DNA of 64,000 nt, from positions 125,205,518 to 125,269,517 of the forward strand of contig NC_092038.1 in assembly GCF_003086295.3 (NCBI RefSeq), given 5' to 3'. Below, piece by piece: positions 25,934-50,655 of this stretch. This DNA comes from Arachis hypogaea (taxonomy: Eukaryota > Streptophyta > Magnoliopsida > Fabales > Fabaceae). Position numbers and translations under genes: made by a program. Below the pieces are notes generated by a model. It saw only the letters and a program-made list of their open reading frames with translations, was not told the origin of the DNA and did no database searches. Positions within the stretch are counted from its first letter, which is position 1. The number at the start of each line of letters is the position of its first letter.

Positions 25934-26043
25934 CTGGCGCTCAACGCCAGTTTCATGTTGCATTCTGGAGTCAAACGCTAGAAACACGTCACGAACCAGA
26001 GTTGAACGCCAAAAACACGTTACAACTTGGCGTTCAACTCCAA
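25934..26043 (+). repeat. 31-bp-period palindrome array in the U3 of element A (5' copy)
   Basis: Four units start at 25934, 25965, 25996 and 26027, each exactly 31 bp apart. Unit 1 is the palindrome CTGGCGCTCAACGCCAG. Units 3 and 4 are arms of a perfect 14-bp inverted repeat (GAGTTGAACGCCAA at 25999-26012 and its complement at 26027-26040). The array ends about 115 bp upstream of the LTR TATA box. The 3' LTR carries the same array from 34816. Confidence 0.85.
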
Positions 26044-26158
26044 GAGAAGTCTCTGCACGTGTAAAGCTCAAGCTCAGCCCAAGCACACACCAAGTGGGCC
26101 CTGGAAGTGGATTTCTGCATCAATCACTTATCTCTGTAACCCTAGTAGCTAGTTTTAG

Positions 26159-26166
26159 TATAAATA
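26159..26166 (+). promoter_or_regulatory. TATA box of element A 5' LTR
   Basis: TATAAATA about 600 bp into the LTR; the same site in the 3' LTR is 35041-35048. Element B has it at 41733 and 49649. Conservation across both elements supports promoter function. Confidence 0.7.
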
Positions 26167-27238
26167 GAACTTTTTACTATTGTACTAGTGTCTTTTGACC
26201 ACATCTTTGGACGCCTAGTCCTTAGACCAGGTCCTTCTCCCTATTTTCGAATTCATATCACATTTTTGGGGGCTGGCCATTCGGCCATGCCTGGACCATC
26301 ACTTATGTATTTTCAACGGTGGAGTTTCTACACACCATAGATTAAGGGTGTGGAGCTCTGCTGTACCTCAAGTTTTAATGCAATTACTACTATTTTCTAT
26401 TCAATTCAGTTTATTCCTGTTCTAAGATATTCGTTGCACTTCAACATGATGAATGTAATGATCCGTGACACTCATTATCATTCTCACCTATGAACGCGTG
26501 ACTGACAACCACTTCCGTTCTACCTTAGAGCGAACGCATATCTCTTGGATTCCTTAATCAGAATCTTCGTGGTATAAGCTAGAATTGATGGCGGCATTCA
26601 TGAGAATCCGAAAAGTCTAAACCTTGTCTGTGGTATTCTGAGTAGGATTCAGGGATTGAATGACTGTGACGAGCTTTAAACTCGCGATTGTTGGGCGTGA
26701 TGACAAATGCAAAAGAATCAATGGATTCTATTCCGACATGATCGATAACCGACAGATGATAGTCGTGCTGTGACGGAACATTTGGACCATTTTCACTGAG
26801 AGGACGGGATGTAGCCATTGACAATGGTGATGCCCTACATACAACTTGCCATGGAAAGGAGTAAGAAGGATTGAAGGAAGGCAGTGGGAAAGCAGAGATC
26901 CAACAGGGACAAAGCATCTCCATAAACTTATCTGAAATTCTCACCAATGATTTACATAAGTATTTCTATCTTTATTTTCTGTTTATTTATTATTATTATT
27001 CGAAAAATCCATAACCATGTATTATCCGCCTAACTGAGATTTACAAGATGACCATAGCTTGCTTCATACCAACAATCTCCGTGGGATCGACCCTTACTCA
27101 CGTAAGGTTTATTACTTGGACGACCCAGTGCACTTGCTGGTTAGTTGTGCGAAGTTGTGAAGAAAGTGCTGAGTTAGTAAATGCGCATACCAAGTTGAAT
27201 GCCATTATTAGAGATCACAATTTCGTGCACCAAGTTTT

Positions 27239-27256
27239 TGGCGCCATTGCCGGGGA
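27239..27256 (+). other. Primer-binding site of element A
   Basis: TGGCGCCATTGCCGGGGA, six bases after the LTR end. It resembles the Athila-lineage PBS (TGGCGCCGTTGCCGGGGA, complementary to a plant tRNA-Asp 3' end as I recall) with one G-to-A change. Confidence 0.7.
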
Positions 27257-28871
27257 TTGTTCGAGTTTGGACAACTGACGGTTCATCTTGTTGCTCAAAT
27301 TAGGTAATTTTCTTTTTTGTTTTATTTTCAAAAAAAAATTTTCAAAAATCTTTCAAAAATTTATCACCTGTTTTCAAAAATTTTCAGAGTTTTTAAGAAT
27401 GAATTCTAGAGTTTCATGTAACATGTTGAAGCCTGGTTGGCTGTAAAGCCATGTCTAATTCCTGGATCGGAGCTTTAGACTAACATTATATGATTCCTGG
27501 GATTCTGATTGAGGACTTTGGATTCATTACTTCCTTTTTCCAAAATATGTTTTCGAAAAATATAAAATAAAATACAAAAAAATTTATAAAATCATAAAAT
27601 TCAAAAATATTTTATGTTGCTTGTTTGAGTCTTGAGTCAATTTTTAAGTTCGGTGTCAATTGCATGTTTTAAAAATTTTATGCATTTTTCGAAAATTCAT
27701 GCATGGTGTTCTTCATGATCTTCAAGTTGTTCTTAATAAGTCTTCTTGTTTGATCTTGATGTTTTGTTGTTTTTCATGTGCATTTTTGCATTCATAGTGT
27801 CTAAGCATTAAAGATTTCTAAGTTTAGTGTCTTGCATGTTTTCTTTGCATAAAAACTTTTTCAAAAATATGTTCTTGATGTTCATCATGATCTTCATAGT
27901 GTTCTTGGTGTTCATCTTGACATTCATAGTGTTCTTGCATGCATTCTTTGTTTTGATCTAAAAAGAAAAGAGAAAAACCCAAAAATGACGTTTTATTTTT
28001 TCTTTCTCATCATTAAAAATTCAAAAATAAAAAAATATCTTCTCCTTATTTCTCTCAAAATTTCAAAAATTTGAGTTGACTTAGTCAAAAATTTTTAAAA
28101 CTTAGCTATTTCTTATAAGTTAAGTCGAATTTTCAATTTTAAAAATCTTATCTTTTCAAAATCTTTTTCAAAAATCAAATCTTTTTCATTTTTCTTTTAT
28201 ATTTTCGAAAATTTTAAAAAATTTATTTCCAAAATCTTTATTCATGATTTTCAAAAACTTCACTAACAATTAATGTGATTGATTCAAAAATTTGAAGTTT
28301 GTTACTTTCTTGTTAAGAAAGGTTCAATCTTTAAATTCTAGAATCATATCTTTTAGTTTCTTGTTAGTCAAGCAATTAATTTTAATTTTAAAAAAATTAA
28401 ATCTTTTCCAACCATATCTTTTTAATCATATCTTTTTATCATATATTTTTAAATCATATCTTTTTCAACTAACTAATTGACTTTTTGTTTGTTTCTTATC
28501 TTTTTCAAAACCACCAACTACTTTCCCTTCTCTAATTTTCGAAAATTCCTCACCCCTTTTTAAAATTCTTTTTTTTAATTAATTGTTTCAAATTTTAATT
28601 CTAATTTTATTTCTTCCTTTAATTTTCGAAAATCACTAACTTATTTCTAAAAATTAATTTTCAAAAATTCCTCCCTTTCATCTTCTTCTATTTATTTATT
28701 TATTTATTAACACTTCTCTTCATCTCAAGAATCTGAACCTATCTTCACCCTTGTGTTTGGATTTTTACCTTTTCCTTCTTCTATTCCCTTTTTCTTCTAC
28801 TAACATAAAGGAATCTCTCTACTGTGGTAAAGAGGATCCCTATTATTATTTTCTGTTCCCTTCTTTTTCAT
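27257..28871 (+). other. AT-rich leader of element A
   Basis: Non-coding, with many TTTTCAAAAAT and TTTTCGAAAA words and two degenerate copies of the TAAGTTTGGTGTC motif (27645, 27818). Element B has an equivalent leader at 42779-44425 that additionally contains a palindrome array. Confidence 0.6.
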
Positions 28872-31182
28872 ATGAGTAGGAGCAAGGACAAGAATATTCT
28901 TGTTGAAGCAGATCCTAAACCTGAAAGGACTCTGAAGAGAAAACTAAGAGAAGCTAAATTACAACAATCCAGAGATAACCTTACAGAAAATTTCGAAAAA
29001 GAAGAGGAGATGGCAGCCGAAAATAATAATGCAAGGAGGATGCTGGGTGATTACACTACACCTACTTCCAAGTTTGATGGAAGAAGCATCTCAATCCCTA
29101 CCATTGGAGCAAACAATTTTGAGCTAAAACCTCAACTGGTTGCTCTAATCAGAACTGCAAGTTTCATGGACTTTCATCAGAAGATCCCTACCAATTTTTA
29201 ACTGAGTTCTTGCAGATCTATGAGACTGTTAAGACTAATGGAGTAGATCCTGAAGTCTACAGGCTCATGCTTTTTCCTTTGCTGTGAGAGACAGGGCTAG
29301 AACATGGTTGGACTCACAACCTAAAGATAGCCTGGACTCTTGGGGATAAGCTGGTCGCGGCCTTCTTTGCTAAGTTCTTTCCTCCTCAAAAGCTGAGCAA
29401 GCTTAGAGTGGATGTTCAGACCTTCAAACAAAAAGATGGTGAATCCCTCTATGAAGCTTGGAAAAGATACAAGCAGATGACCAAAAGGTGTCCTTCTGAC
29501 ATGCTTTCTGAATGGACCATTTTGGATATATTCTATTATGGTCTATCTGAATTCTCTAAGATGTCACTGGACCATTCTGCAGGTGGATTCATTCACCTAA
29601 AGAAAATGCCTGCAGAAGCTCAAGACTCATTGACATGGTTGCAAATAACCAATTCATGTATACTTCTGAGAGGAATTTCGTGAGTAATGGGACGCCTCAA
29701 AGGAAGGGAGTCCTTGAAATTGATGCTCTGAATGCCATATTGGCTCAGAACAAAATGTTGACTCAGCAAGTCAATATGATTTCTCAAAGTCTGAATGGAT
29801 GGCAAAATGCATCCAACAGTACTAAAGAGGCATCTTCTGAAGAAGAAGCTTATGATCCTGAGAACCCTGCAATGGCAGAGGTAAATTATATGGGTGAACC
29901 TTATGGAAACACCTATAATTCATCATGGAGAAATCATCCAAATTTCTCATGAAAGGATCAACAAAAGCCTCAACAAGGCTTTAATAATGGTGGCAGAAAT
30001 AGGCTCAGCAATAGCAAGCCTTATCCATCATCTTCTCAGCAACAGACAGAGAATTCTGAGCAGAGCACCTCTAATTTAGCAAACTTAATCTCTGATCTGT
30101 CTAAGGCCACTTTAAGTTTCATGAGTGAAACAAGGTCCTCCATTAGAAATTTGGAGGCACAAGTGGGCCAGCTGAGTAAGAAAGTCACTGAAACTCCTCC
30201 TAGTACTCTCCCAAGCAATACTGAAGAGAATCCAAAAAGAGAGTGCAAGGCCATTGACATAATTAACATGGCCAAACCTAGGGAGGAAGGGGAGGACGTG
30301 AATCCCAATGAGGAAGACCTCATGGGACGTCTCTCAAGCAAGAAAGAGCTCCCTATTGAGGACCCAAAGGGATCTGAAGGTCATATAGAGACCATAGAGA
30401 TCCCATTAAACCTCCTTCTGTCATTCATGAGCTCTGAAGACTATTCTTCCTCTGATGAGGATGAAAATGTAACTGGAGAGCAAGTTGCTCAATATCTAGG
30501 AGCCATCATGAAGCTGAATGCCAAATTGTTTGGTAATGAGACTTGGGAAGGTGAACCTCCCTTGCTCATTAGTGAACTAGATACATGGGTTCAGCAAACC
30601 TTACCTTAAAAGAGACAAGATCCTGGAAAATTCTTAATACCATGTACCATAGGCACCATGACCTTTGAAAAGGCTCTGTGTGACCTAGGGTCGGGCATAA
30701 ATCTTATGCCACTCTCTGTAATGGAGAAGCTGGGGATCATCGAGGTATAGCCTACCATATTCTCATTACAAATGGCAGACAAGTCAGTAAGACAAGCTTA
30801 TGGATTGGTAGAGGACGTGTTAGTAAAGATTGAAGGCCTTTACATCCCTACTGATTTCATAATCTTAGACACTAGGAAGGAAGAGGATGAATGCATCATC
30901 CTTTGAAGACCTTTCCTAGCCACAACAGGAGCTGTGATAGATGTTAATAGAGGAGAATTAGTCCTTCAATTGATTGGGGACTACCTTGTGTTTAAAACCC
31001 AAGGGTGTTCCTCTACAACCATGGAGAGGAAGCATGAAAAGCTTCTCTCAGTACAGAGTCAGACAAAGCCCCCACAATCAAACTCTAAGTTTGGTGTTGT
31101 GAGGCCACAGCCAAACTCTAAGTTTGGTGTTGACTCCCCACATCCAAACTCTAAGTTTGGTGTTGGGAGTCTACAATATTGA
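28872..31182 (+). pseudogene. Broken gag-protease ORF of element A
   Basis: This begins at ATG 28872 (MSRSKDKNILVEADPKPERT) and would run about 770 codons, but is interrupted. A frameshift after 29170, further shifts near 29260-29290 and 29610, and stops at about 29950, 30607, 30748 and 30904 leave pieces at 28872-29201, 29408-29683, 29635-29952, 30121-30609 and 30934-31182. The gag part (LDSQPKDSLDSWG, then PPQKLSKLRVDVQTFKQKDG) matches plant retrotransposon gag of the Athila kind; no CCHC knuckle is seen. The protease part has [19 protein letters not shown] (usual D-[ST]-G triad replaced by DLG) and RPFLATTGAVIDV. The C-terminus contains three SKFGV units encoded by the CTAAGTTTGGTGT motif. 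Element B has the better-preserved copy. Confidence 0.85.
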
Positions 31183-31410
31183 CCTGATCACCTGTGAGAC
31201 TCCATGAGAGCCCACTGTCAAGCTAGTGACATTAAAGGAGCGCTTATTGGAAGGCAACCCAATTTTTATTTATCTAATATTATTTTTATTTTATTTTTCC
31301 TTTATGTTTTATTATGTTCATGATCATATGGAGTCACAAAAATAAATACTAAAATTAAAAATAGAATCAAAAATAGCAGAAGAAAAAGCACACCCTGGAG
31401 GAAGGGCTTA

Positions 31411-31715
31411 CTGGCGTTTAAACGCCAGCAAGGAGCATCTGGCTGGCGTTCAACGCCAGAACAGAGCACGGATCTGGCGTTGAACGCCAGAAACAAGCAT
31501 CATCCTGGCGTTTAAACGCCAGAAATACACCCTGAGAAGAGCTGATGCTGAACGCCAGAAACAAGCATGGAACTGGCGTTCAACGCCAGAAACATGCTGC
31601 AAATGGGCGTTGAACGCCCAAAACAAGCATGAAGCTGGCGTTCAACGCCAGAAACAAGCATCAATCTGGCGTTGAATGCCAGGATTGCATGCAGAGGGCG
31701 TTTTACACGCCTCAT
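31411..31715 (+). repeat. 31-bp-period palindrome array in element A interior
   Basis: About nine units. The GGCG core begins at 31413, 31445, 31476, 31507, 31575, 31606, 31637 and 31668: steps of 32, 31, 31, 68, 31, 31, 31. The 68 gap contains one degenerate half-unit at 31542. Units are perfect or near-perfect palindromes (CTGGCGTTTAAACGCCAG, CTGGCGTTCAACGCCAG, TGGGCGTTGAACGCCCA) separated by about 14 bp such as AAACAAGCATGAAG. No ORF spans the array. Confidence 0.9.
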
Positions 31716-31990
31716 TGGTGCAGGGATGTAAATCCTTGACACCTCAGGATCTGTGGACCCCATAGGATCCCTACCTACCTCAACTCACCCTCTCTCTCTT
31801 TTTCACACAATCCAATAAACACTCTTACCCAAAACCCTTCACTAATCACCTCAATCTCTCTTCTCTATCACCTCTTCACCACTCACATCCATCCACTCTT
31901 CCCCATAAACCCCACATACCTTCAAAATTCAAAATCTCTTTCCCACCCAAACCCACCCTAAATAGCCGAACCTACTCCCTCTCCCTTCAC

Positions 31991-31998
31991 TATATAAA
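31991..31998 (+). promoter_or_regulatory. Putative internal TATA box for ORF3 of element A
   Basis: TATATAAA inside a long pyrimidine-rich tract (about 31780-32110), 198 bp before the ORF3 ATG. Element B has the same sequence at the same relative place (47421-47428). This suggests a separate ORF3 transcript. Confidence 0.5.
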
Positions 31999-32117
31999 CC
32001 CCTCTATCCTTCTTCATTTTCACACACCACAACCCTCTCTTCTTCACGTTGGCCAAAACCACACACCTCTCCCTTTCCTCCATATTTTCTTCTTCTTCTT
32101 CTCTTCTTTCTTCTTTT

Positions 32118-32150
32118 GCTCGAGGGCGAGCAATTTTCTAAGTTTGGTGT
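32118..32150 (+). promoter_or_regulatory. Stem-loop plus AAGTTTGGTGT signal before ORF3 (element A)
   Basis: GCTCG-AGGG-CGAGC can form a 5-bp stem with a 4-nt loop, followed after 8 nt by AAGTTTGGTGTGG. The same arrangement with a changed but still paired stem (GCTTG-GGGA-CAAGC) abuts the 3' LTR at 34406-34440. See findings. Confidence 0.6.
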
Positions 32151-32188
32151 GGTAAAAGCATAGCCTTTTTATTTTTCCATAACCACTT

Positions 32189-33343
32189 ATGGCACCTAAG
32201 GCCAGAGAAACCTCTAGAAAAGGGAAAGGGAAAACAAAAGCTTCCACTTCTGAGTCATGGGAGATGGAGAGATTCATCTCTAAAGCCCATCAAGACCACT
32301 TCTATGAAGTTGTGGCCAAGAAGAAGGTGATCCCTGAGGTCCCTTTCAAGCTCAAGAAAAATGAGTATCCGAAGATCCGACATGAGATTCAAAGAAGAGG
32401 TTGGGAAGTTCTTACCAACCCCATTCAACAAGTCAGAACCTTAATGGTTCAAGAGTTCTATGCCAATGCATGGATCACTAGGAACCATGATCAAAGTGTG
32501 AACCCGAATCCAAAGAATTATCTTACAATGGTTCGGGGGAAATACTTAGATTTTAGTCTGGAAAATGTGAGGTTAGCATTCAACTTGCCCATGATGCAAG
32601 GAGATGCATGCCCCTACACTAGAAGGGTCAACTTTGATAAAAAATTAGACCAAATCCTTATGGACATATTTGTGGAAGGAGCTCAATGGAAAAGAGACTC
32701 CAAAGGCAAGCCGGTTCAATTAAGAAGACTGGACCTCAAGCCTGTGGCTAGAGGATGGTTGGAGTTCATCCAACGCTCTATCATCCCCACTAGCAATCGA
32801 TCCAAAGTTACTGTGGATCAGGCCATCATGATTCATAGCATCATGAATGGAGAGGAAGTAGAAGTTCATGAAGTCATCTCCCTTGAATTCTACAAAATAG
32901 CCGAAAAGTCCTTCATCATGGCAAGGCTAGCTTTTTCTCATCTTATTTGCCATCTATGTTGCTCAGCTGGAGTTACCATAGAAGGAGACATCCCCATTGA
33001 GAAGGATAAGCCCATCACTAAGAAGAGGATGAAGCAAACAAGAGAGCCCACTCATGGATCCCAAGAGACGCATGAGGAAGCTCATCACCAAGAAATCCCA
33101 GAAATGCCTCAAGGGATGCACTTTCCTTCCAACAATTATTGGGAACAACTCAACACTTCTCTGGAAGACTTGAGTTACAATATGGATCAATTAAGGGTGG
33201 AATATCAAGAGCATTCTATCATTCTCCATGAAATTAGAGAAGATCAAAGAGCAATGAGGGAGGAGCAACAAAGGCAAGGAAGAGACATAGAAGAGCTCAA
33301 GGACATCATTGGTTCTTCAAGAAGAAAGCGCCACCATCACTGA
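32189..33343 (+). CDS. ORF3 of element A: plant-transposon-domain protein, intact
   Basis: An uninterrupted 384-codon ORF starts at ATG 32189. It has a basic N-terminus (MAPKARETSRKGKGKTKAST), then a region with EFYANAWITRNHDQ, MVRGKYLDFSLENVRLAFNL and RGWLEFIQRSIIPTSNRSKV. This matches the putative plant transposon protein domain (Pfam PF20167, from memory) carried by Athila-like elements and their relatives. The last ~100 residues form a predicted coiled coil (LDQLRVEYQEHSIILHEI, then REEQQRQGRDIEELKDII) and end with a basic RRKRHHH tail. It lies downstream of its own TATA box, pyrimidine-rich leader and stem-loop signal. It is open although the gag-protease of the same element has several lesions. 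The molecular role of the family is not established. Confidence 0.75.
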   Translation: MAPKARETSRKGKGKTKASTSESWEMERFISKAHQDHFYEVVAKKKVIPEVPFKLKKNEYPKIRHEIQRRGWEVLTNPIQQVRTLMVQEFYANAWITRNHDQSVNPNPKNYLTMVRGKYLDFSLENVRLAFNLPMMQGDACPYTRRVNFDKKLDQILMDIFVEGAQWKRDSKGKPVQLRRLDLKPVARGWLEFIQRSIIPTSNRSKVTVDQAIMIHSIMNGEEVEVHEVISLEFYKIAEKSFIMARLAFSHLICHLCCSAGVTIEGDIPIEKDKPITKKRMKQTREPTHGSQETHEEAHHQEIPEMPQGMHFPSNNYWEQLNTSLEDLSYNMDQLRVEYQEHSIILHEIREDQRAMREEQQRQGRDIEELKDIIGSSRRKRHHH

Positions 33344-34440
33344 GGTGGACTCATTCCTTGTTCTTATTTCTCTGTTTTTCGGTTTTTATGCTTAATGTTT
33401 ATCTATGTTTGTGTCTTTTCTACATGATCATTAGTATTTAGTAACTATGTCTTAATGCTATAAATAATTCCATAAATCATTCACCTCTCTTAAATGAAAA
33501 ATGTTTCAATACAAAAGAATAAGAAGTGCATGAGTTTCGAATTTATCCTTGAATTTAGTTTAATTATATTGATGTGGTGACAATACTTTTTATCTTCTGA
33601 ATGAATACTTGAACAGTGCATATTTTTTATCTTGCTGTTTATGAATGTTAAAATTGTTGGCTCTTGAAAGAATGATGAATAAAGAGAAATGTTACTGATA
33701 ATCTGAAAAATCATAAATTTGATTCTTGAAGCAAGAAAAAGCAGTGAATAGCAAAAGCTTGTGGAAAAAAAAAGTGGCAAAAAAAATAGAAAAAAAAAGA
33801 AAAAGCAAGCAGAAAAAGCCAATAGCCCTTAAAACCAAAAGGCAAGGGTAAAAAGGATCCAAGGCTTTGAGCATCAATGGATAGGAGGGCCCAAGAAAAT
33901 AAAATACAGGCCTAAGCGGCTAAATCAAGCTGTCCCTAACCATGTGCTTATGGCATGCAGGTCCAAGTGAAAAGCTTGAGACTGAGTGGTTAAAGTCGTG
34001 ATCCAAAGCAAAAAGAGTGTGCTTAAGAGCTCTGGACACCTCTAACTGGGGACTTTAGCAAAGCTGAGTCACAATCTGAAAAGGTTCACCCAGTCATGTG
34101 TTTGTGGCATTTATGTATCCGGTGGTAATACTGGAAAACAAAATGCTTAGGGCCACGGCCAAGACTCATAAAAGTAGCTGTGTTCAAGAATCAACATACT
34201 TAACTAGGAGAATCAATAACACTATCTGAAATTCTAAGTTCCTATAGATGCCAATCATTCTAAACTTCAAAGGATAAAGTAAGATGCCAAAACTATTAAG
34301 AAGCAAAAAGCTACAAGTCCCGCTCATCTAATTAGAACTAATATTCATTGATATTCTGAGATTTATAGTATGTTCTCTTCTTTTTATCCTATTTGATTTT
34401 CAGTTGCTTGGGGACAAGCAACAATTTAAGTTTGGTGTTG
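33344..34440 (+). other. 3' non-coding region of element A
   Basis: No ORF, with an A-rich patch at about 33765-33815. It ends in the stem-loop (34406-34419) and TTAAGTTTGGTGTTG (34426-34440) that touch the 3' LTR. No ordinary purine-only tract is present at the LTR border. Confidence 0.6.
34406..34440 (+). promoter_or_regulatory. Stem-loop plus TTAAGTTTGGTGTTG at the PPT position (element A)
   Basis: GCTTG-GGGA-CAAGC followed by TTAAGTTTGGTGTTG, the last base immediately preceding the LTR TG. Plus-strand priming should occur here, but the tract is G/T-rich, not polypurine. Confidence 0.6.
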
Positions 34441-36115
34441 TGATGAGCGGATAATTTATACGCTTTTTGGCATTGTTTTTAGGTAGTTTTTAGTAGGATC
34501 TAGCTACTTTTAGGGATGTTTTCATTAGTTTTTATGCTAAATTCACATTTCTGGACTTTACTATGAGTTTGTGTATTTTTCTATGATTTTAGGTATTTTC
34601 TGGCTGAAATTGAGGGACCTGAGCAAAACTGTGATAAGAAGGCTGACAAAGGACTGCTGATGTTGTTGGATTCTGACCTTCCTGCACTCAAAATGGATTT
34701 TCTGGAGCTACAGAACTCCAAATGGTGCGATCTCAACAGTGTTTGAAAGTAGACATCCAGAGCTTTCCAGCAATATATAATAGTCCATACTTTATTCGAG
34801 ATTAGATGATGCAAACTGGCACTCAACGCCAGTTTCATGTTGCATTCTGGAGTCAAACACCAGAAACACGTCACGAACCAGAGTTGAACGCCAAAAACAC
34901 GTTACAACTTGGCGTTTAACTCCAAGAGAAGCCTCTGCACGTGTAAAGCTCAAGCTCAGCCCAAGCACACACCAAGTGGGCCCTGGAAGTGGATTTCTGC
35001 ATCAATCACTTATCTCTGTAACCCTAGTAGCTAGTTTTAGTATAAATAGAACTTTTTACTATTGTACTAGTGTCTTTTGACCACATCTTTGGACGCCTAG
35101 TCCTTAGACCAGGTCCTTCTCCCTATTTTCGAATTCATATCACATTTTTGGGGGCTGGCCATTCGGCCATGCCTGGACCATCACTTATGTATTTTCAACG
35201 GTGGAGTTTCTACACACCATAGATTAAGGGTGTGGAGCTCTGCTGTACCTCGAGTTTTAATGCAATTACTACTATTTTCTATTCAATTCAGTTTATTCCT
35301 GTTCTAAGATATTCGTTGCACTTCAACATGATGAATGTAATGATCCGTGACACTCATTATCATTCTCACCTATGAACGCGTGACTGACAACCATTTCCGT
35401 TCTACCTTAGACCGAACGCATATCTCTTGGATTCCTTAATCAGAATCTTCGTGGTATAAGCTAGAATTGATGGCGGCATTCATGAAAATCCGAAAAGTCT
35501 AAACCTTGTCTGTGGTATTCTGAGTAGGATTCAGGGATTGAATGACTGTGATGAGCTTCAAACTCGCGATTGTTGGGCATGATGACAAACGCAAAAGAAT
35601 CAATGGATTCTATTCCGACATGATCGATAACCGACAGATGATTAGCCGTGCTGTGACGGAGCATTTGGACCATTTTCACTGAGAGGACGGGATGTAGCCA
35701 TTGACAATGGTGATGCCCTACATACAGCTTGCCATGGAAAGGAGTAAGAAGGATTGAAGGAAGGCAGTGGGAAAGCAGAGATCCAACAGGGACAAAGCAT
35801 CTCCATACACTTATTTGAAATTCTCACCAATGATTTACATAAGTATTTCTATCTTTATTTTCTGTTTATTTATTATTATTATTCGAAAAATCCATAACCA
35901 TGTATTATCCGCCTAACTAAGATTTACAAGATGACCATAGCTTGCTTCATACTAACAATCTCCGTGGGATCGACCCTTACTCACGTAAGGTTTATTACTT
36001 GGACGACCCAGTGCACTTGCTGGTTAGTTGTGCGAAGTTGTGAAGAAAGTGTTGATTTAGTAAATGCGCATACCAAGTTGAATGCCATTATTAGAGATCA
36101 CAATTTCATGCACCA
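34441..36115 (+). repeat. 3' LTR of element A
   Basis: 1,675 bp, from TGATGAGCGG to ATGCACCA, followed by the AAGGC duplication. Its palindrome array begins at 34816 and its TATA box at 35041. Confidence 0.9.
34816..34925 (+). repeat. 31-bp-period palindrome array in the U3 of element A (3' copy)
   Basis: Units start at 34816, 34847, 34878 and 34909, each 31 bp apart, with substitutions relative to the 5' copy (CTGGCACTCAACGCCAG in unit 1). Confidence 0.8.
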
Positions 36116-36461
36116 AAGGCCAACCTGCTGGATTGGGCCTTTTAGCTTAATTTGGGCCTGGCTGATTATTTGGACCAAGATATGAATAGTGCCCCTACTT
36201 GAGGCCGATCTCTTCAATAGGAGTTGGACTTGAGTATCGATAGAGCTTGGGATTGCCTAAGTCGTTATCCTCTTCCTGAGTTTGGGGAACCGACATGATT
36301 TCAAGTTGAAAAAACCGATGTGATTTCAAATCATCAATCGTCGTGTCTTATCAACCGTCGCGTTCGTTTGGCTTTTTGCATTTACACATGGGGGCAGTTA
36401 CATTGGTAATGGCACGTTCTTTTAATAATTGCGTCATTTTACTATTATGCCCCTAGTATGT

Positions 36462-40877: not shown

Positions 40878-41537
40878 CCATCCGAGGTCTAAGCTATAGA
40901 TAGTCGAGACGTCTGGCTTGCTATCCGCCTTGACGACTGAAGGTTCCTGGAGAGTTTCTTACATCAGGCTCCTATTGTTTTCCCCCAGTTTGGTACTTGC
41001 TAGTTTGGAAAGAGCATCGGCTCTACTGTTGAGCTTCTTTGTTATATGTCTTACTTTAGTTTTAAGAAATTGCCTGAGATGCTCCAGCGATTTTTCCAAA
41101 TACCTTTTCATGTTAGGGTCTTTTGCTTGGTACTCTGATGAGCGGATAATTTATACGCTTTTTGGCATTATTTTTAGTATGTTTTTAGTATGTTTTAGTT
41201 AGTTTTTAGTATATTTCTATTAGTTTTTAGTTAAAATTCTCTTTTCTGGACTTTACTATGAGTTTGTGTATTTTTCTATGATTTCAGGTATTTTCTGGCT
41301 GAAATTGAGGGACTTGAGCAAAAATCTGATTCAGAGGCTGAAAAGGACTGCAGATGCTGTTGGATTCTGACCTCCCTGTACTCAAAGTGGATTTTCTAGA
41401 GCTAAAGAAGCCCAATTGGCACGCTCTCAACGGCGTTGAAAAGTAGACATTCTGGGCTTTCCAGCAATGTATAATAGTCCATACTTTTCCCGAGATTTGA
41501 TGGCCCAAACCGGCGTTCTAAATCAGCTCAAAACTGC

Positions 41538-41616
41538 CCGGCGTTAAACGCCGGAACTAGCACAAGAATGGGAGTTAAACGCCCAAACTGGCATAAAAGC
41601 TGGCGTTTAACTCCAA
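41538..41616 (+). repeat. 31-bp-period palindrome array in the U3 of element B (5' copy)
   Basis: Units start at 41538 (CCGGCGTTAAACGCCGG), 41569 (TGGGAGTTAAACGCCCA) and 41600 (CTGGCGTTTAACTCCAA), exactly 31 bp apart. A partial unit lies at 41510. The 3' LTR copy is at 49454-49532. Confidence 0.85.
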
Positions 41617-41732
41617 GAGAAGTCTCTACATGAAAATGCTTCAATGCTCAGCCCAAGCACACACCAAGTGGGCCCGAAAGTGGATTTTTATGTCATTTAC
41701 TCATCCTTGTAAATCCTAGGCTACTAGTTCTC

Positions 41733-41740
41733 TATAAATA
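41733..41740 (+). promoter_or_regulatory. TATA box of element B 5' LTR
   Basis: TATAAATA, equivalent to 26159 in element A and to 49649-49656 in the 3' LTR of B. Confidence 0.65.
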
Positions 41741-42760
41741 GGACATTTTGCTATTGTATTTTCACCTTTGGACGTTTAGCTCTTAGATCATGGGGGCTGG
41801 CCTCACGGCCATGCCTGGACCTTGTTCTTATGTATTTTCAACGGTGGAGTTTCTACACACCATAGATTAAGGTGTAGAGCTCTGCTGTACCTCGAGTATT
41901 AATGCAATTACTATTGTTCTTCTATTCAATTCAGCTTGTTCTTATTCCAAGATATACATTTGCACCCAAGAACATGATTAATGTGATGATTATGTGACAC
42001 TCATCATCATTCTCACTTATGAACGAGTGCCTGACAACCACTTCTGTTCTACAAGCAAACAAGACTTGAATGTTTATCTCTTGGATCCCTTAATCGGAAT
42101 CTTCGTGGTATAAGCTAGAACTGATGGCGGCATTCAAGAGAATCCGGAAGGTCTAAACCTTGTCTGTGGTATTCTGAGTAGGATTCAATGATTAAATGAC
42201 TGTGACGAGCTTCAAACTCGCGATTGTGGGGCGTTAGTGACAGACGCAAAAGAATCACTGGATTCTATTCCGACATGATCGAGAACCGACAGCTGAATAG
42301 TCGTGCCGTGACAGGGTGCGTTGAACATTTTCACTGAGAGGATGGGAGGTAGCCACTGACAACAGTGAAACCCTACATACAGCTTGCCATGGAAAGGAGT
42401 AAGAAGGATTGGATGAAGACAGTAGGAAAGCAGAGAGACGGAAGGGACAAAGCATCTCCATACGCTTATCTGAAATTCTTACCAATGAATTACATAAGTA
42501 TCTCTATCTTTATCTTTATGTTTCATACATCATCCATAACCATTTGAGTTTGCCTGACTAAGATTTACAAGGTGACCATAGCTTGCTTCATACCAACAAT
42601 CTCCGTGGGATCGACCCTTACTCGCGTAAGGTTTATTACTTGGAAGACCCAGTACACTTGCTGGTTAGTTGTGCGAAGTTGTGATAAAGAGTTGAGATTA
42701 CAATTGTGCGTACCATGTTGATGGCGCCATTGATGATCACAATTTCTTGCACCAAGTTTT

Positions 42761-42778
42761 TGGTGCCATTGCCGGGGA
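42761..42778 (+). other. Primer-binding site of element B
   Basis: TGGTGCCATTGCCGGGGA, preceded by AGTTTT exactly as in element A, with C-to-T at the fourth base. It lies 21 bp from the LTR end as defined by the integrated 3' LTR, against 6 bp in element A. Confidence 0.65.
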
Positions 42779-44425
42779 TTGTTTGAGTTTGGACAACTGA
42801 CAGTTCATCTTGTTGCTTAGATTAGGTATTTTTCAGAATTCTTAAGAATGAATTCTAGAGTTTCATAATGATTTGTTGAAGTCTGGCTAGCTGTGAAGCC
42901 ATGTCTAATTTTATTGGACCGAGGTTTCAACTTATCATCACAAGAGCTTGTTGATTTCTATCAATCTTGCTGTTGGAGCAATGATCTGCTAAGGCTTGGC
43001 TGGCCATTGGCCATGTCTAGTGTTTTGGACCGGAGCTTTCTTTGAAAGCTTGGCTGGCTATGAAGCCATGTCTAATTCCTGGACCGGAGTCTTAGACTAG
43101 CATTGCAATGATTCCTGGAATTCTCATTAAAAATTTTGATATCTTTATTTTCTTTTCCACTTAATTTTCGAAAAACCACAAAAAAAATTACAAAATCATA
43201 AAAACCAAAAAAAAATTTATGTTTCTTATTGAGACACTAGTCTCATTTTAAGTTTGGTGTCAATTGGATGTTTCAGTTCTTCTTGCATTCATTCATGTGT
43301 CGTAAGTGATCTTCAAGATGTTCTTGATGATTTCCTTGCTCTGATCTTTGAATTCTCTTGACTTGAGTGTTTTGTGTTTCTCATGTGCATTCTATTTTTT
43401 TAGTGTCAGTAGTATACAAACTTCTAAGTTTGGTGTCCTGCATGCATTGTTTATTTGATTTTAGTTGCATTTTGATTATTCCTCATTATTAAAAATCCAA
43501 ACAAATATTTTTAATTTGTGTCTTTTCAAGTCAATAATACAGAGAATTGAAGACTCAGAACATACAGCAGAAGAATTACACAGAAAAAGTTGGGCGTTCA
43601 AAACGCCTAGTGAGGAAGACAAACTGGCGTTTAAACGCCAGCCAGGGTGCCTGGCTGGGCGTTTAACGCCCAAAAGGGGTGAGTTTTGGGCGTTAAATGC
43701 CAAAATGTGCACCATTCTGGCCGTTTAACGCCAGGATGGCACAAGAGGGAAGATTCTGTTTTCAATTCAATTTTTTTTCAAGTTTTAAATATTTTTCAAA
43801 ATCAAATCTTTTTCAAATCATATCTTTTCAATCATATGCTTTCAAAATAAATTTCTTTCCATTTTCAAAAATACTTGCTAACAATTAGTGATTTGATTCA
43901 ACAATTCAAGTATGTTGCCTTTTCTGTTGAGAAAGGTTTAATGTTTGAATCATGTCTTTTCTTGTTAGCCAAGTCATTAATTTTCAAAATCATATCTTTT
44001 TAAATTGCTTTTCAAATCATATCTTCTCAATCACATCTTTTTAAAACCATAACTTTTCAATCATATCTTCTTAATCATATCTTTTTCAAAATAGTTTTCA
44101 ATCAAATCTTTTTTATTTCTAATTTCAAAATCTTTTTCAAAAATCACTTGATTTCTTTTCCACTCTTGGTTTTCGAAAATCAATTAGTGTTTTTCAAAAT
44201 GTTTTTTTTAAATCTTTTAATTAATTTTCGAAAATTTCTTCCCCTCTTCTCACATCCTTCTATTTATGGACTAACACTCCTCCTCAATGCACAATTCGAA
44301 CTCTATCTTTCTAAGTTTGAATTCTTCTACCTCTTCCTTCTATTTTTCTTTTCCTCTGACACCTTAAGGAATCTCTATACTGTGACATAGAGGATTCCAT
44401 ATTTTCTTGTTTTCTTCTCTTTCAT
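42779..44425 (+). other. AT-rich leader of element B
   Basis: Non-coding. It contains AAGTTTGGTGT motifs at 43248 and 43423, a five-unit palindrome array at 43591-43734 and TTTTCGAAAA words. Short repeated segments (GGCTGGCTGTGAAGCCATGTC type) occur at 42880-43090. Confidence 0.6.
43591..43734 (+). repeat. Palindrome array in the leader of element B
   Basis: Five palindromic units with cores at about 43593, 43626, 43658, 43689 and 43719 (steps 33, 32, 31, 30). Examples are CTGGCGTTTAAACGCCAG and TGGGCGTTTAACGCCCA. Element A lacks an array at this place. Confidence 0.8.
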
Positions 44426-46741
44426 ATGAGCAGGAGCAAAGACAAAAGCATTCTTGTTGAGGCTGACCCTGAACCTGAAAGGACCTTGAAGCGAAAGCTA
44501 AGAGAAGCTAAGGCACAACTCTCTGTAGAGGACCTAACAGAAATTTTCAAACAAGAAGAACCCATGGCAGCCGAAAACAACAACAAAGCCAACAATGCAA
44601 GGAAGGTGCTGAGTGACTTTACTGCACCTACTCCTGACTTTTATGGGAGAAGCATCTGTATCCCTGCCATTGGAGCAAACAACTTTGAGCTTAAGCCTCA
44701 ATTAGTTTCTCTGATGCAACAGAATTGCAAGTTCCATGGACTTCCATTGGAAGATCCTCATCAGTTTTTAGCTGAGTTCTTGCAAATCTGTGACACTGTC
44801 AAGACTAATGGGGTTGACCCTGAGGTCTACAGACTTATGCTATTCCCTTTTGCTGTAAGAGACAGAGCTAGGACATGGTTGGACTCACAACCTAAAGAAA
44901 GCCTGAACTCTTGGGAAAAGCTAGTCAATGCCTTATTGGCAAAGTTCTTTCCACCTCAAAAATTGAGTAAGCTTAGAGTGGAAGTCCAAACCTTCAGACA
45001 GAAGGAAGGTGAATCCCTCTATGAAGCTTGGGAAAGATACAAACAATTAATCAGAAAGTGTCCCTCTGACATGCTTTCTGAATGGAGCATCATAGGTATT
45101 TTCTATGATGGTCTGTCTGAACTGTCCAAGATGTCTTTGGATAGCTCTGCTGGAGGATCTCTTCATCTGAAGAAGACGCCTACAGAAGCTCAAGAGCTCA
45201 TTGAAATGGTTGCAAATAACCAATTCATGTACACTTCTGAAAGGAATCCTGTGAACAATGGGACGAATCAGAAGAAATGAATTCTTGAGATTGATACTCT
45301 GAATGCCATATTGGCTCAGAACAAAATATTGACTCAGCAAGTCAATATGATTTCTTAAAGTCTGTCTGGAATGCAAGCTGCACCAGGCAGTACTAAGGAC
45401 GCTTCATCTGAAGAAGAAGCTTATGATCCTGAGAACCCTTCAATGGAAGAGGTGAATTACATGGGAGAACCCTATGGAAACACCTATAACCCTTCATGGA
45501 GAAATCATCCAAATCTTTCATGGAAGGATCAACAGAGACCTCAACAAGGTTTCAACAACAATAATGGTGGAAGAAACAGGTTTAGCAATGGCAAGCCTTT
45601 TCCATCATCTTCTCAGCAACAGACAGAGAATTCTAAGCAGAGCCACTCTGACTTAGCAACCATGGTCTCTGATCTAATCAAAACCACTCAAAGTTTCATG
45701 ACTGAAACAAGGTCCTCCATTAGAAACTTGGAGGCACAAGTGGGTCAGCTGAGTAAGAAAATTACTGAACTCCCTCCTAGCACTCTTCTAAGTAATACAA
45801 AAGAGAATCTAAAAGGAGAGTGCAAGGCCTTTAACATGACCTACATGTCCGAATTTGGAGAGGAGGAAGAGGCATTGAGTGCCATTGAGGAAGGCCTCAA
45901 TGGACGTTCACTGGCCTCCAATGAGTTCCCTAAAGAGGGACCATGGGAATCTGAGACTCCCACTGAGACCATAGAGATTCCATTGGACTTACTTCTGCCA
46001 TACATGAGCTCTGATGAGTATTCTTCCTCTGATGAGGATGAGTATGTCACCGAAGAGCAAGTTGCTAAATACCTTGGAGCAATCATGAGGCTAAATGACA
46101 AGTTATTTGGTAATGAGACCTGGGAGGATGAACCCCCTTTGCTCACCAAAGAATTGGATGACTTGTCTAGGCAGAAACTACCTCAAAAGAGACAAGATCT
46201 TGGGAAGTTCTCAATACCTTGTGCCACAGGCACCATGACCTTCAAGAAGGCCTTGTGTGACCTAGGGTCAAGTGTAAACCTCATGCCTCTCTCTGTAATG
46301 GAGAAGCTAGGGATCTTTGAGGTACAAGCTGCAAGAATCTCACTAGAGATGGCAGACAATTCAAGAAAACAAGCTTATGGGCTTGTAGAGGATGTTCTGG
46401 TAAAGATTGAAGACCATTACATCCCCGTTGATTTCATAGTCCTAGAGACTGGGAAGTGCATGGATGAATCCATCATCCTTGGCAGACCCTTCCTAGCCAC
46501 AACAAAGGTTGTGATTGATGTTGACAGAGGAGAATTGATCATTCAAATGAATGAAGAATCCTTTGTGTTTAAGGCTCAAGGATATCCCTCTGTCACCATG
46601 GAGAGGAAGCATGAAGAGCTTCTCTCAAAACAGAGTCAAACAGAGCCCCCACAGTCAAACTCTAAGTTTGGTGTTAGGAGGCCACAACCAAATTCTAAGT
46701 TTGGTGTTGGGAGGTTCCAACATTGCTCTGAGCATCTGTGA
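44426..46741 (+). pseudogene. gag-protease ORF of element B with two in-frame stops
   Basis: One frame runs from ATG 44426 (MSRSKDKSILVEADPEPERT) to TGA at 46739-46741, about 770 codons. It is broken only by TGA at 45278-45280 and TAA at 45356-45358; element A has sense codons at both places. Gag residues about 85-290 include LEDPHQFLAEFLQICDTVKT and FFPPQKLSKLRVEVQTFRQK (plant retrotransposon gag fold). There is no CCHC knuckle. The protease-like region has [19 protein letters not shown] and IILGRPFLATTKVVIDVDRG. The C-terminus carries two SKFGV repeats encoded by CTAAGTTTGGTGT. No reverse transcriptase follows. Termination would release gag alone unless the stops are read through. Confidence 0.85.
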
Positions 46742-46946
46742 GGCTCCATGAGAGCCCACTGTCAAGCTACTGACATTAAAGAAGCGCTTGTTGGGAGGCA
46801 ACCCAATGTTATATTTATCTATTTTTTTCTTTGTTATTTTATGTTTTCTATAGGTTGATGATCATGAGAAGTCACAAAATCAATTGAAAAAACAAAAATA
46901 GAATGAAAAACAGAAAGAAAATAGCACACCCTGGAGGAAGAACCTG

Positions 46947-47118
46947 CTGGCGTTTAAACGCCAGTAAGGGCAGCAAATGGGCGTTTAACGCCCAGTCTGG
47001 CACCATTCTGGGCGTTTAACTCCAGAAAGGGGCACCAGACTGGCGTTAAACGCCAGGAAATGGCAAGAAGTTGGCGTTAAACGCCATAAATGGGCACCAG
47101 TCCGGCGTTTAACGCCAA
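46947..47118 (+). repeat. 31-bp-period palindrome array in element B interior
   Basis: Six units have GGCG cores at 46949, 46980, 47011, 47042, 47073 and 47104, every step exactly 31 bp. Units include CTGGCGTTTAAACGCCAG, TGGGCGTTTAACGCCCA and CTGGCGTTAAACGCCAG. Spacers are about 14 bp and differ in sequence. The position, between gag-protease and the ORF3 promoter region, matches element A. Confidence 0.9.
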
Positions 47119-47420
47119 AATTGGCATAGAGAGCATTTTTGCTCGCCACTTGGTGCAGGGATGACTTTTCCTTGACACCTCAGGATCTGTGGACCCCACA
47201 GGATCCCCACCTACCCCACCACTCTCTCTCTTCTTCACCCATTCACCAATCACCTCCACACCTCTTCCCCAAAAATCCCTCACCTATCAAATTCCATCTT
47301 TCTCTTCACCACTCACATCCATCCTTCATAAAACCCCACCCACCTCACCATTCAAATTCAAACCACTTTCCCTCCCAAACCCACCCTCACATAGCCGAAC
47401 CTTACCCCTCTCTCCAATCC

Positions 47421-47428
47421 TATATAAA
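47421..47428 (+). promoter_or_regulatory. Putative internal TATA box for ORF3 of element B
   Basis: TATATAAA in a pyrimidine-rich stretch, 193 bp upstream of the ORF3 ATG, conserved with element A (31991). Confidence 0.5.
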
Positions 47429-47548
47429 CCCATCTTCACCCCTTCATTTTCACACAACCTAAACACTACTTCTCCCCCTTTGGCCGAACCACATAGCCAC
47501 CTCCATCTCCTCTATTTCTTCTTCTTCTACTCTCTTCTGTCTTCTTTT

Positions 47549-47583
47549 GCTCGAGGACGAGCAAACCTTCTAAGTTTGGTGTG
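47549..47583 (+). promoter_or_regulatory. Stem-loop plus CTAAGTTTGGTGTG before ORF3 (element B)
   Basis: GCTCG-AGGA-CGAGC stem-loop, followed by CTAAGTTTGGTGTG at 47570-47583, 38 bp before the ORF3 ATG. Confidence 0.6.
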
Positions 47584-47620
47584 ATAAAAGCATTGCTTTT
47601 TGTTTTTTTCATAACCATTT

Positions 47621-48132
47621 ATGGCACCTAAGGCCAGAGAAACCTCTAGAAAGAGGAAAGGGAAGGCAAAAGCTTCCACCTCCGAGTCATGGGAGATGGA
47701 GAGATTCATCTCAAGGGTGCATCATGACCACTTCTATGAAGTTGTGGCCATGAAGAAGGTGATCCCTAAGGTCCCTTTCAAACTCAAAAAAGGTCAACTT
47801 TGATCAAAGGTTGGACCAAGTCCTCATGGATACCACTAAGAAAAGGATGGAGTAAATAAGAGAATCCCACTCATCATGAAATCCCTGAGATGCCTCAAGG
47901 GATGCACTTTCCTCCACAACACTATTGGGAGCAAATAAACACCTCCCTAGGAGAATTGAGTTCCAACATGGGACAACTAAGGGTGGAGCACCAAGAACAT
48001 TCCATTCTCCTCCATGAAATTAGAGAAGATCAAAGAATCATGAGAGAGGAGCAACAAAGGCAAGGAAGAGACATTGAGGAGCTCAAGCACTCCATAAGAT
48101 CTTCAAGAGGAAGAACAAGCCGCCATCACTAA
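47621..48132 (+). pseudogene. ORF3 of element B, internally deleted
   Basis: The start (MAPKARETSRKRKGKAKAST) and the C-terminal coiled coil (REEQQRQGRDIEELKHSI) match ORF3 of element A. Two internal blocks are missing: about 265 bp after KVPFKLKK and about 345 bp before a remnant of TKKRM. The central plant-transposon domain is lost and the frame is shifted, with stops at about 47803 and 47853. The C-terminal segment stays open from 47890 to 48132. Confidence 0.8.
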
Positions 48133-49070
48133 GGTGGACCCGTTCTTTAATCTCCTTGTCCTTTATTTTCCTGTTTTTCGAAAATTATGCTTTATGCTTT
48201 ATTTATGTTTGTGTCTTATGATCATTAGTGTCTTAGTGTATATGCCTTAAAGTTATGAATATCCTATGAATCCATCACCTTTCTTAAATGAAAACTGTTT
48301 TTATTACAAAAGAACAAGAAGTGCATGATTTCGAATTCATCCTTAAAACTAGCTTAATTATTTTGATGTGGTGATAATACTTTTTGTTTTCTGAATGTAT
48401 GCTTGAACAGTGCATATGTCTTTCGAATTTGTTGTTCAAGAATGTTAAAATTGTTGGCTCTTGAAAGAATAATGAAAAAGGAGAAATGTTACTAAGGATC
48501 TGAAAAATCATCAAATTGATTCTTGAAGCAAGAAAAAGCAGTGAAAAGCTTGTAGAAAAAAAAAGAGAGTATATGCGAAAAAAAAGAGAAGAAAGAGAGG
48601 AAAAAGAAAAAGAAAAAAGTAATAAAGCTATGATCCAAGGCAAAAATAGTGTGCTTAAGAACCCTGGACAACTCTAATTGGGGACTCTAGCAAAGCTGAG
48701 TCACAATCTGAAAAGGTTCACCCAGTTATGTGTCTGTGACATGTATGTATCCGGTGGTAATACTGGAAAACAGAGTGCTTTGGGCCACGGCCAAGACTCA
48801 TAAAGTAGCTGTGTTCAAGAATCAACATACTTAACTAGGAGAATCAATAACACTATCTGAATTCTGAGTTCCTATAGATGCCAATCATTCTGAACCTCAA
48901 AGGATAAAGTGAGATGGCAAAACTGTTCAGAGGCAAAAAGCTACTAGTCCCGCTCATCTAATTGGAGCTAAGTTTCATTGATAGTTTGGAATTTATAGTA
49001 TATTCTCTTCTTTTTATCCTATTTGATTTTCAGTTGCTTGGGGACAAGCAACAATTTAAGTTTGGTGTTG
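48133..49070 (+). other. 3' non-coding region of element B
   Basis: Homologous to 33344-34440 in element A. An A/G-rich tract lies at about 48560-48625. It ends with the stem-loop (49036-49049) and TTAAGTTTGGTGTTG (49056-49070) directly against the 3' LTR. Confidence 0.6.
49036..49070 (+). promoter_or_regulatory. Stem-loop plus TTAAGTTTGGTGTTG at the PPT position (element B)
   Basis: Identical to the element A signal (34406-34440), although the surrounding sequences have diverged. Confidence 0.6.
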
Positions 49071-50655
49071 TGATGAGCAGATAATTTATACGCTTTTTGG
49101 CATTATGTTTTAGTTAGTTTTTAGTATATTTTTATTAGTTTTTAGTCAAAATTCACTTTTATGGACTTTACTATGAGTTTGTGTGTTTTTTTTGTGATTT
49201 CAGGTATTTTCTGGCTGAAATTGAGGGACTTGAGTAAAAATCTGATTCAGAGGCTGAAAAGGACTGCAGATGCTGTTGGATTCTGACCTCCCTGCACTCG
49301 AAGTGGATTTTCTGGAGCTACAGAAGCCCAATTGGCGCGCTCTCAACGACGTTGGAAAGTAGACATCCTGGGCTTTCCAGCAATGTATAATAGTTCATAC
49401 TTTACTCGAGATTTGATGGCCCAAACCGGCGTTCTAAATCAGCTCAAAACTGCCCGGCGTTAAACGCCGGAACTGGTACAAGAATGGGAGTTAAACGCCC
49501 AAACTGGCATAAAAGCTGGCGTTTAACTCCAAGAGAAGTCTCTACACGAAAATGCTTTAATGTTCAGCCCAAGCACACACCAAGTGGGCCCGGAAGTGGA
49601 TTTTTATGTCATTTATTCATCCTTGTAAACCCTAGGCTACTAGTTCTCTATAAATAGGACCTTTTGCTATTGTATTTTCATCTTTGGACGTTTAGTTCTT
49701 AGATCATGGGGGCTGGCCTCACGGGCATGTCTGGACATTGTTCTTATGTATTTTCAACGGTGGAGTTTCTACACACCATAGATTAAGGTGTGGAGCTCTG
49801 CTGTACCTCGAGTATTAATGCAATTACTATTGTTCTTCTATTCAATTCAGCTTGTTCTTATTCCAAGATATTCATTTGCACCCAAGAACATGATGAATGT
49901 GATGATTATGTGACACTCATCATCATTCTCACTTATGAACGAGTGCCTGACAACCACTTCTGTTCTACAAGCAAACAAGGCTTGAATGTTTATCTCTTGG
50001 ATCCCTTAATCGGAATCTTCGTGGTATAAGCTAGACCTGATGGCGGCATTCAAGAGAATCCGGAAGGTCTAAACCTTGTCTGTGGTATTCTGAGTAGGAT
50101 TCAATGATTGAATGACTGTGACGAGCTTCAAACTCGCGATTGTGGGGCGTTAGTGACAGACGCAAAAGAATCACTGGATTCTATTCCGACATGATCGAGA
50201 ACCGACAGCTGAATAGCCATGCCGTGACAGGGTGCGTTGAACATTTTCACTGAGAGGATGGGAGGTAGCCACTAACAATGGTGAAACACTACATACAGCT
50301 TACCATGGAAAGGAGTAAGAAGGATTGGATGAAGACAGTAGGAAAGCAGAGAGACGGAAGGGACAAAGCATCTCCATACGCTTATCTGAAATTCTTACCA
50401 ATGAATTACATAAGTATCTCTATCTTTATCTTTATGTTTCATACATCATCCATAACCATTTGAGTTTGCCTGACTAATATTTACAAGGTGACCATAGCTT
50501 GCTTCATACCAACAATCTCCGTGGGATCGACCCTTACTCGCGTAAGGTTTATTACTTGGACGACCCAGTACACTTGCTGGTTAGTTGTGCGAAGTTGTGA
50601 TAAAGAGTTGAGATTACAATTGTGCGTACCATGTTGATGGCGCCATTGATGATCA
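49071..50655 (+). repeat. 3' LTR of element B
   Basis: 1,585 bp, from TGATGAGCAG to GATGATCA, followed by the TACTC duplication. Its palindrome array is at 49454-49532 (units at 49454, 49485 and 49516) and its TATA box at 49649. Confidence 0.9.

Follow-up and report, generated by a model that had tools for sequence, protein, structure and literature searches.

Arrays of a 31-bp palindromic unit in two pol-less retrotransposons of peanut are candidate regulatory sites

Why should a short palindrome recur, at a nearly constant spacing, in seven places within two neighbouring retrotransposons? The question is raised by a 64,000-nucleotide stretch of the Arachis hypogaea (peanut) genome (contig NC_092038.1, positions 125,205,518 to 125,269,517; hereafter the window). 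It holds two elements, A and B, which we class by sequence as pol-less, FIDEL-related, Ty3/gypsy-type long terminal repeat (LTR) retrotransposons of Arachis, the FIDEL likeness being judged from primer matches. A sequence-only reading had reported palindromes locked to a 31-bp period in both elements, and had proposed either dimeric proteins bound along one face of the DNA or a row of equal RNA hairpins. The seven arrays were borne out: four lie in the LTRs, two before an extra open reading frame (ORF2) and one in the leader of B, and together they comprise 37 units of the dyad CTGGCGTTNAACGCCAG and its variants, some of them degenerate. The arrays are real and most likely regulatory. Neither binding along one face nor a row of hairpins is well supported, and the published Sirevirus work excerpted below offers a close parallel. 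Every coordinate given earlier held a unit, although two conventions had been mixed (counting from the first base of the 17-mer or from the G that opens GGCG, 2 bp further on). The arrays and their host elements are as follows.

25934..26043: array of the A 5′ LTR, 4 units, steps 31-31-31
34816..34925: array of the A 3′ LTR, 4 units, steps 31-31-31
41510..41616: array of the B 5′ LTR, 4 units, steps 28-31-31
49426..49532: array of the B 3′ LTR, 4 units, steps 28-31-31
31411..31713: array before ORF2 in A, 10 units, one 37-bp step inside
46947..47118: array before ORF2 in B, 6 units
43591..43734: leader array of B, between the primer binding site (PBS) and gag, 5 units
25559..36115, + strand: element A, full-length pol-less LTR retrotransposon; LTR pair 97.1% identical; 5-bp target-site duplication (TSD) AAGGC at its ends
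41136..50655, + strand: element B, related subfamily; LTR pair 95.5% identical; 5-bp TSD TACTC

The reading that we favour, at slightly better than even confidence, is that the arrays are cis-regulatory sites for a dimeric DNA-binding factor and act on two promoters, that of the LTR and an internal one for ORF2. Each array would be a cluster of DNA sites, every dyad with the half-site GGCGTT, bound by a dimeric and probably host-encoded protein. The LTR array would form the upstream activating region of the promoter that makes genomic RNA, and the pre-ORF2 array would act on another promoter, inside the element, from which the conserved ORF2 protein would be expressed. Expansion would have come about through tandem duplication of the 31-bp unit, in which a 17-bp dyad is joined to a 14-nt linker, and the leader of subfamily B would have received a copy of one array. 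We infer binding, activation, promoter use and the copying route from the observations given below. The regulatory reading is favoured because the arrays are promoter-proximal, because the dyad core is conserved as sequence, and because the Sirevirus repeated motif offers an analogue in the excerpted parts of PMC2829016; dimer-binding sites near the LTR promoter, as proposed earlier, thus make the best reading of the sequence.

Chance was excluded as the origin of the arrays. All 16 arm bases are present in nine sites, and sites with at least 12 of the 16 stand exactly 31 bp apart in 19 pairs, whereas 60 first-order Markov sequences contained neither a full 16-base site nor a 31-bp pair. The period had been described as nearly invariant. 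It is not: steps of 28, 29, 30, 32, 33 and 37 bp also occur in the window, and the spacer is more constant than the period, measuring 14 nt in 19 of 24 spacers (3′ LTRs left out). For 18-bp palindromes with a following unit (n = 4), the step was 32 bp twice, 31 bp once and 37 bp once. The two groups of A reported at 31445-31507 and 31575-31668 do contain units, but they are parts of the single 10-unit array with its 37-bp step. Behind the final unit of each LTR array comes GAGAAG(T/C)CTCT, a sequence that is close to a dyad in its own right (26044-26057, 34926-34939, 41617-41630 and 49533-49546).

The argument that a fixed period proves selection was rejected, as its outcome hinges on the assumed indel rate. 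The 19 spacers of 14 nt carry at least 80 substitutions, and 5 spacers depart from this length; spacer indels are clearly in deficit if the A-B comparison sets the ratio (3.6-4.4 substitutions per gap; P = 1e-5 to 3e-4), whereas the LTR-pair ratio (99 substitutions to 3 gaps) gives no deficit (P = 0.96). Constant spacing is therefore suggestive only as evidence of selection. With such a ratio between 5′ and 3′ LTRs, a constant period needs no selection, which favours a neutral, mutation-driven origin: a palindromic unit duplicated by slippage, or by template switching in reverse transcription, and shared through ancestry without any function. The presence of arrays is also labile, in that the leader array occurs in B only; no counterpart was found in A, and the B leader array is 73.9% identical to the B pre-ORF2 array. 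Set against a neutral origin, which we hold to be rather unlikely, the same array type precedes both TATA-like boxes in both subfamilies.

Spacing was also read in related copies. Read in its antisense frame, the pre-ORF2 array of A led to 13 related proteins (E up to 2.6e-6), one from Arachis hypogaea, eleven from ENA contigs and one from JGI contigs, while a query with the LTR array returned zero matches. Dyads in these 13 copies were decoded in three frames, with residue patterns set after the proteins had been inspected; the sample favours arrays that are open in the antisense frame and, as several copies are close relatives, its members are not independent. Within these bounds 83 dyads were read and 8 left undecided. 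Among the 76 steps, 55 were exactly 31 bp and 10 were 30 or 32 bp (65/76 within 30-32 bp); the longer ones comprised nine of 36-38 bp, one of 44 bp and one of 79 bp that starts at a doubtful read. Broad spacing in other copies had been named as the sign of a mere young tandem duplication; in this partial test, the 13 copies instead gave a sharp peak at 31 bp. The DNA helical turn measures 10.5 bp, and the 36-38-bp steps (~3.5 turns), which are found repeatedly within arrays of the other copies and a single time in A, place dyads about half a turn out of phase. One-face binding is thus no strict rule, and the earlier suggestion that all dyads lie on one DNA face is weakened.

The sequence of the dyad separates a conserved core from variable flanks. 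In the divergence comparison (22 units of 17 bp), the between-unit difference was 0.14 in the core half-sites against 0.62 in the 14-nt spacers (A pre-ORF2: 0.10 against 0.38; B pre-ORF2: 0.03 against 0.58), a contrast that is somewhat inflated because units were searched for by dyad likeness. Arm pairing was tested in 28 units, leaving out the 3′ LTR units and one unit with an inserted arm base. The two outer pairs were Watson-Crick in 43 of 56 cells, compared with a shuffled mean of 26.8 (reached in 0/5000 shuffles), and in 23 of 36 cells, compared with 14.3, when distinct units only were used (n = 18; reached in 7/5000 shuffles). No pairing excess was seen in the four GGCG pairs (97/112 against 98.1) or in the two TT/AA pairs (51/56 against 51.1). 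At pair 5 we counted 20 C-G, 3 A-G, 3 C-T, 1 C-A and 1 T-G, with zero compensated A-T; as few double changes are expected there, the absence of compensated change is suggestive rather than strong.

These results show that the core GGCGTT/AACGCC is conserved as sequence and that only the two outer pairs show compensating change. The earlier statement that the palindromes vary in compensating ways therefore holds for the outer pairs in the window, but not for the core, where changes are one-sided, and weakly in other copies. There, outer-pair association gave an odds ratio of 3.3 (P = 0.03; 75 units), falling to 2.6 (P = 0.14) over 61 distinct contexts, so that this covariation is weak. Since changes in the core affect one arm and go uncompensated in the other, they fit selection on the DNA sequence better than selection on a stem, and some symmetry is left over in the dyad flanks. 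Independent mutation of the arms, which had been put forward as a mark of simple duplication, was found in the core and in part at the outer pairs, and because the arms do partly mutate independently, young tandem duplication stays a live rival. A neutral array could also gain its outer-pair symmetry by the copying of one arm onto the other; such copying would correct core pairs too, yet the core stays one-sided, and the core-spacer contrast, even if somewhat inflated, argues against neutrality.

The pairing data bear equally on a role in RNA, in which the arrays would act as packaging, dimerisation or export signals, or as folded host targets that feed small-RNA silencing. Fold z-scores were strong in three internal arrays (A pre-ORF2, -12.7; B leader, -6.7; B pre-ORF2, -9.1), and the outer pairs covary in the window. 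However, any array of near-identical palindromes folds well regardless of role, and the predicted helices in these three arrays mostly join neighbouring palindromes rather than form equal hairpins. The core has no compensated change, sense-strand G-U mismatches (8) do not exceed A-C mismatches (13; others, 12), and outer covariation is weak in other copies. The row of equal hairpins is thus not supported. Packaging signals are often located in the leader region of retroelements, which is where the B leader array sits. Further points on the side of RNA are that the LTR array region appears to be transcribed, if the FIDEL412 amplicon described below is as we judge it, and that Sirevirus palindromes attract excess small RNAs according to the excerpted parts of PMC10760457 and PMC5311732. 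Taken with the points against it, an RNA role seems unlikely to us.

The regulatory reading draws on the position of the arrays relative to TATA-like boxes and to ORF2.

26159..26164, + strand: TATA-like box of the A 5′ LTR, 116 bp after the array (others at 35041, 41733 and 49649)
31991..31998, + strand: internal TATA-like box CTATATAAACCC of A, between array and ORF2
47421..47428, + strand: internal TATA-like box of B, same CTATATAAACCC motif
32189..33343, + strand: ORF2 of A, 384 aa, PF20167 (E = 1.1e-33), predicted helix at residues 315-380
47621..48132, + strand: ORF2 remnant of B, shortened inside

From the end of the LTR array to the TATA-like box we measured 116 bp in A and 117 bp in B, despite 186 substitutions (12.1%) and 51 gap openings between the A and B LTRs. 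Published expression data touch the same region. The primers for the FIDEL412 quantitative reverse-transcription PCR delimit 41431-41613 in B, a span of 183 bp equal to the published amplicon size, and this interval covers the B 5′ LTR array minus its last 3 bases. In the portions of PMC3496627 drawn on here, FIDEL412 had the highest stressed/unstressed ratio among four FIDEL sequences (1.74-fold). That the amplicon with the highest stress ratio spans nearly the whole LTR array is a further reason for which the regulatory reading is favoured, with the limit that the primers carry 2 and 1 mismatches to B, so that the published template was a relative and not the B copy.

An internal promoter for ORF2 is plausible from the sequence. 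The distance from the end of the pre-ORF2 array to CTATATAAACCC was 278 bp in A and 303 bp in B. The motif TATATAAA was present between array and ORF2 in both elements, with a Markov chance of 0.4% in A and 0/2000 in B; as A and B are homologous, these are not two independent cases. Such chance estimates strengthen the internal TATA-like box and weaken the LTR box. The gene that it would serve is under purifying selection: over 141 codons of ORF2 in A and B, the non-synonymous rate (dN) was 0.087 and the synonymous rate (dS) 0.669, a ratio of 0.13 compared with 0.36 for the gag/protease piece (162 codons), which indicates that the protein is worth expressing. Named organisms among the 42 ORF2 homologues were all Arachis (hypogaea, stenosperma and ipaensis) or Stylosanthes. 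A large middle part of A ORF2 is lost from B ORF2, around 47790-47870. A link of ORF2 to the plant mobile domain was dropped, as Pfam matches PF20167 only.

Several observations weigh against regulation by the arrays. The motif TATAWA is expected by chance in the 160-bp stretch after the LTR array in 7% (A) and 10% (B) of cases, and it is common in these AT-rich elements, at a frequency not above chance (A: 9 against 6.1 expected; B: 4 against 4.2). Between the B leader array and gag, no TATAWA was found. The stretch from array to ORF2 is not specially conserved between A and B (46 mismatches and 34 gap openings over 436 aligned positions), and the LTR units of A are degenerate, with 4 to 7 of 8 arm pairs intact. 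CpG observed/expected ratios were 0.89-1.29 in the arrays, 0.65-0.74 in whole LTRs and 0.08-0.11 in gag-protease, but this richness is largely motif-derived because each full dyad holds two CpG, and only the A pre-ORF2 array is longer than 200 bp. The missing indel deficit under the LTR-pair ratio, the recurrent 36-38-bp steps and the unit search, which favours a conserved-looking core, count on the same side.

The adjacency of ORF2 to an array, together with its purifying selection, also raises the idea that the binder is encoded by the element itself: dimers of the ORF2 protein would occupy the dyads and regulate their own family, through activation or anti-silencing. The predicted long C-terminal helix (315-380) could serve dimerisation, and model confidence is high over residues 331-370 (predicted local distance difference test, pLDDT, 80-93). 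The rest of the model is poor, however (mean pLDDT 49.9); no relative of solved structure was found for ORF2, and PF20167 names no DNA-binding role. We regard an element-encoded binder as very improbable, and give the same very low credence to the form of it in which a helix-held ORF2 dimer would act in trans on all copies. Were it true, pol-less elements would bring along their own regulator as well as its binding sites, placed as a cassette at the LTR, at the internal promoter and in the leader.

The closest published system for the regulatory arrays is the Sirevirus repeated motif, and the earlier remark that no named element of this kind was known is wrong in kind. As described in the excerpted parts of PMC2829016, Sireviruses (Ty1/copia) have dyad repeats that precede the TATA box within the LTR, and more of them precede env (77 of 79 linker copies); the dyad core is CGG-CCG in 12 of 13 elements and the repeats form CpG islands. 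There, Bousios et al. 2010 propose regulation and an internal env promoter, which was not conclusively identified. The peanut dyads likewise precede an LTR TATA-like box, by 116-117 bp (the box itself having a chance of 7-10%), and the peanut arrays at 31411-31713 and 46947-47118 likewise precede an extra ORF, which is the PF20167 protein ORF2 in peanut and env in Sireviruses. Both sets of repeats are rich in CpG. By this analogy, the peanut arrays share the layout and probably the role of the Sirevirus motif. The core differs: in peanut it is GGCGTT-AACGCC, and CCGG-CCGG outer arms occur on both sides in one B LTR unit only. In contrast to Ty1/copia Sireviruses, the peanut gag matches PF03732, a Ty3 capsid match falls below the cut-off, and primers of the Ty3/gypsy element FIDEL match. 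The peanut arrays add a leader array and a fixed 31-bp unit, neither being described for the Sirevirus motif in the cited parts of PMC2829016. A TATA-like box before the extra ORF was found in peanut, whereas the internal promoter of Sireviruses was not conclusively identified.

Two further comparisons were made on excerpted sources. Maize Sirevirus LTR palindromes are described as small-RNA hotspots with strong predicted RNA structure (PMC10760457, PMC5311732); peanut resembles them in its palindrome clusters in the LTR cis-region, and the small-RNA data exist for maize only. Retand (PMC11963269) has tandem arrays, extra ORFs between gag-pol and the 3′ LTR and some non-autonomous members, as here; most of its extra ORFs are TRP28 (PF04195) and they run mainly antisense, whereas peanut ORF2 is sense and PF20167. 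A short palindromic repeat of a grass, as given in the cited part of PMC10578108, was unrelated in sequence to the peanut dyad and was set aside. In the openly licensed literature searched, with subscription journals mostly outside its scope, no description of such arrays in a Ty3/gypsy element turned up, and five motif variants searched as text were absent from it; the text of the FIDEL paper (PMC3496627) has 0 matches to palindromes or hairpins. The layout is thus known from Sireviruses; what looks new is the Ty3/gypsy family, the other motif, the 31-bp unit and the leader copy. If the regulatory reading is true, two unrelated plant retrotransposon superfamilies reached the same layout, in which dyad arrays precede both the LTR promoter and an extra gene. 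This points to a need shared by the two, probably that of expressing the extra protein from an internal promoter, the question left by the Sirevirus authors in the cited part of their paper, and the TATA-like box between array and ORF2 makes such a promoter directly testable in peanut. FIDEL-type elements are described as a significant part of the peanut genome and as stress-induced (PMC3496627, in part).

The host elements have the gene order gag and protease-like sequence, then array, then ORF2, and the 5-bp TSDs indicate that both are ordinary full-length insertions.

44426..45280, + strand: gag of B, PF03732
45371..46741, + strand: gag end and aspartic protease-like region of B, protease matches under the Pfam cut-off
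27239..27258, + strand: probable PBS of A, placed by position (B: 42761-42780)

The gag/protease region forms two long frames in B and only short pieces in A (ORFs of at least 110 aa). Array and ORF2 begin within ~1 kb after it. Judged by the ORF lists (at least 110 aa) and by their sizes, A and B have no space for reverse transcriptase and integrase, no DNA profile search aimed at these two having been made. FIDEL is an autonomous Ty3/gypsy element that carries pol, and A and B, without pol, differ from it in this. The PBS of both, we assume, resembles tRNA-Asp. FIDEL of Arachis is classed as Ty3/gypsy in the cited part of PMC3496627. Seven of the eight published FIDEL primers match A or B at no more than 3 mismatches, three of these exactly within an LTR: FIDEL197R and FIDEL412R in the A 5′ LTR, and FIDEL496R in both B LTRs. 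FIDEL496F had no site within 3 mismatches in A or B, and the FIDEL274 primer pair maps outside the LTRs.

Directly 5′ of both 3′ LTRs, at the expected polypurine-tract site, stands AAGTTTGGTGT, which occurs 11 times across A and B (31087, 31120, 31153, 32140, 34428, 43250, 43426, 46664, 46697, 47572 and 49058), including the B leader and tandem 33-bp copies in gag-protease; its recurrence brings to mind the multiple polypurine tracts described for Sireviruses in the parts of the literature cited. Among viral contigs, at least 120 stretches matched the single 15-mer palindrome and were taken as unrelated, and 0 matched a dyad pair at the 31-bp period. A prokaryote search found the dyad GGCGTTNAACGCC paired 30-33 bp apart at 4 loci (L121-L124) of Prauserella and Novosphingobium genomes; these are perhaps bacterial operators and were taken as unrelated to the peanut arrays. 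At the Rfam gathering threshold over 25500-50700, with none in the arrays, the sole match was snoR71 inside B gag (44969-45076, minus strand; 40.2 bits against a cut-off of 40), a family that perhaps overlaps retrotransposon sequence.

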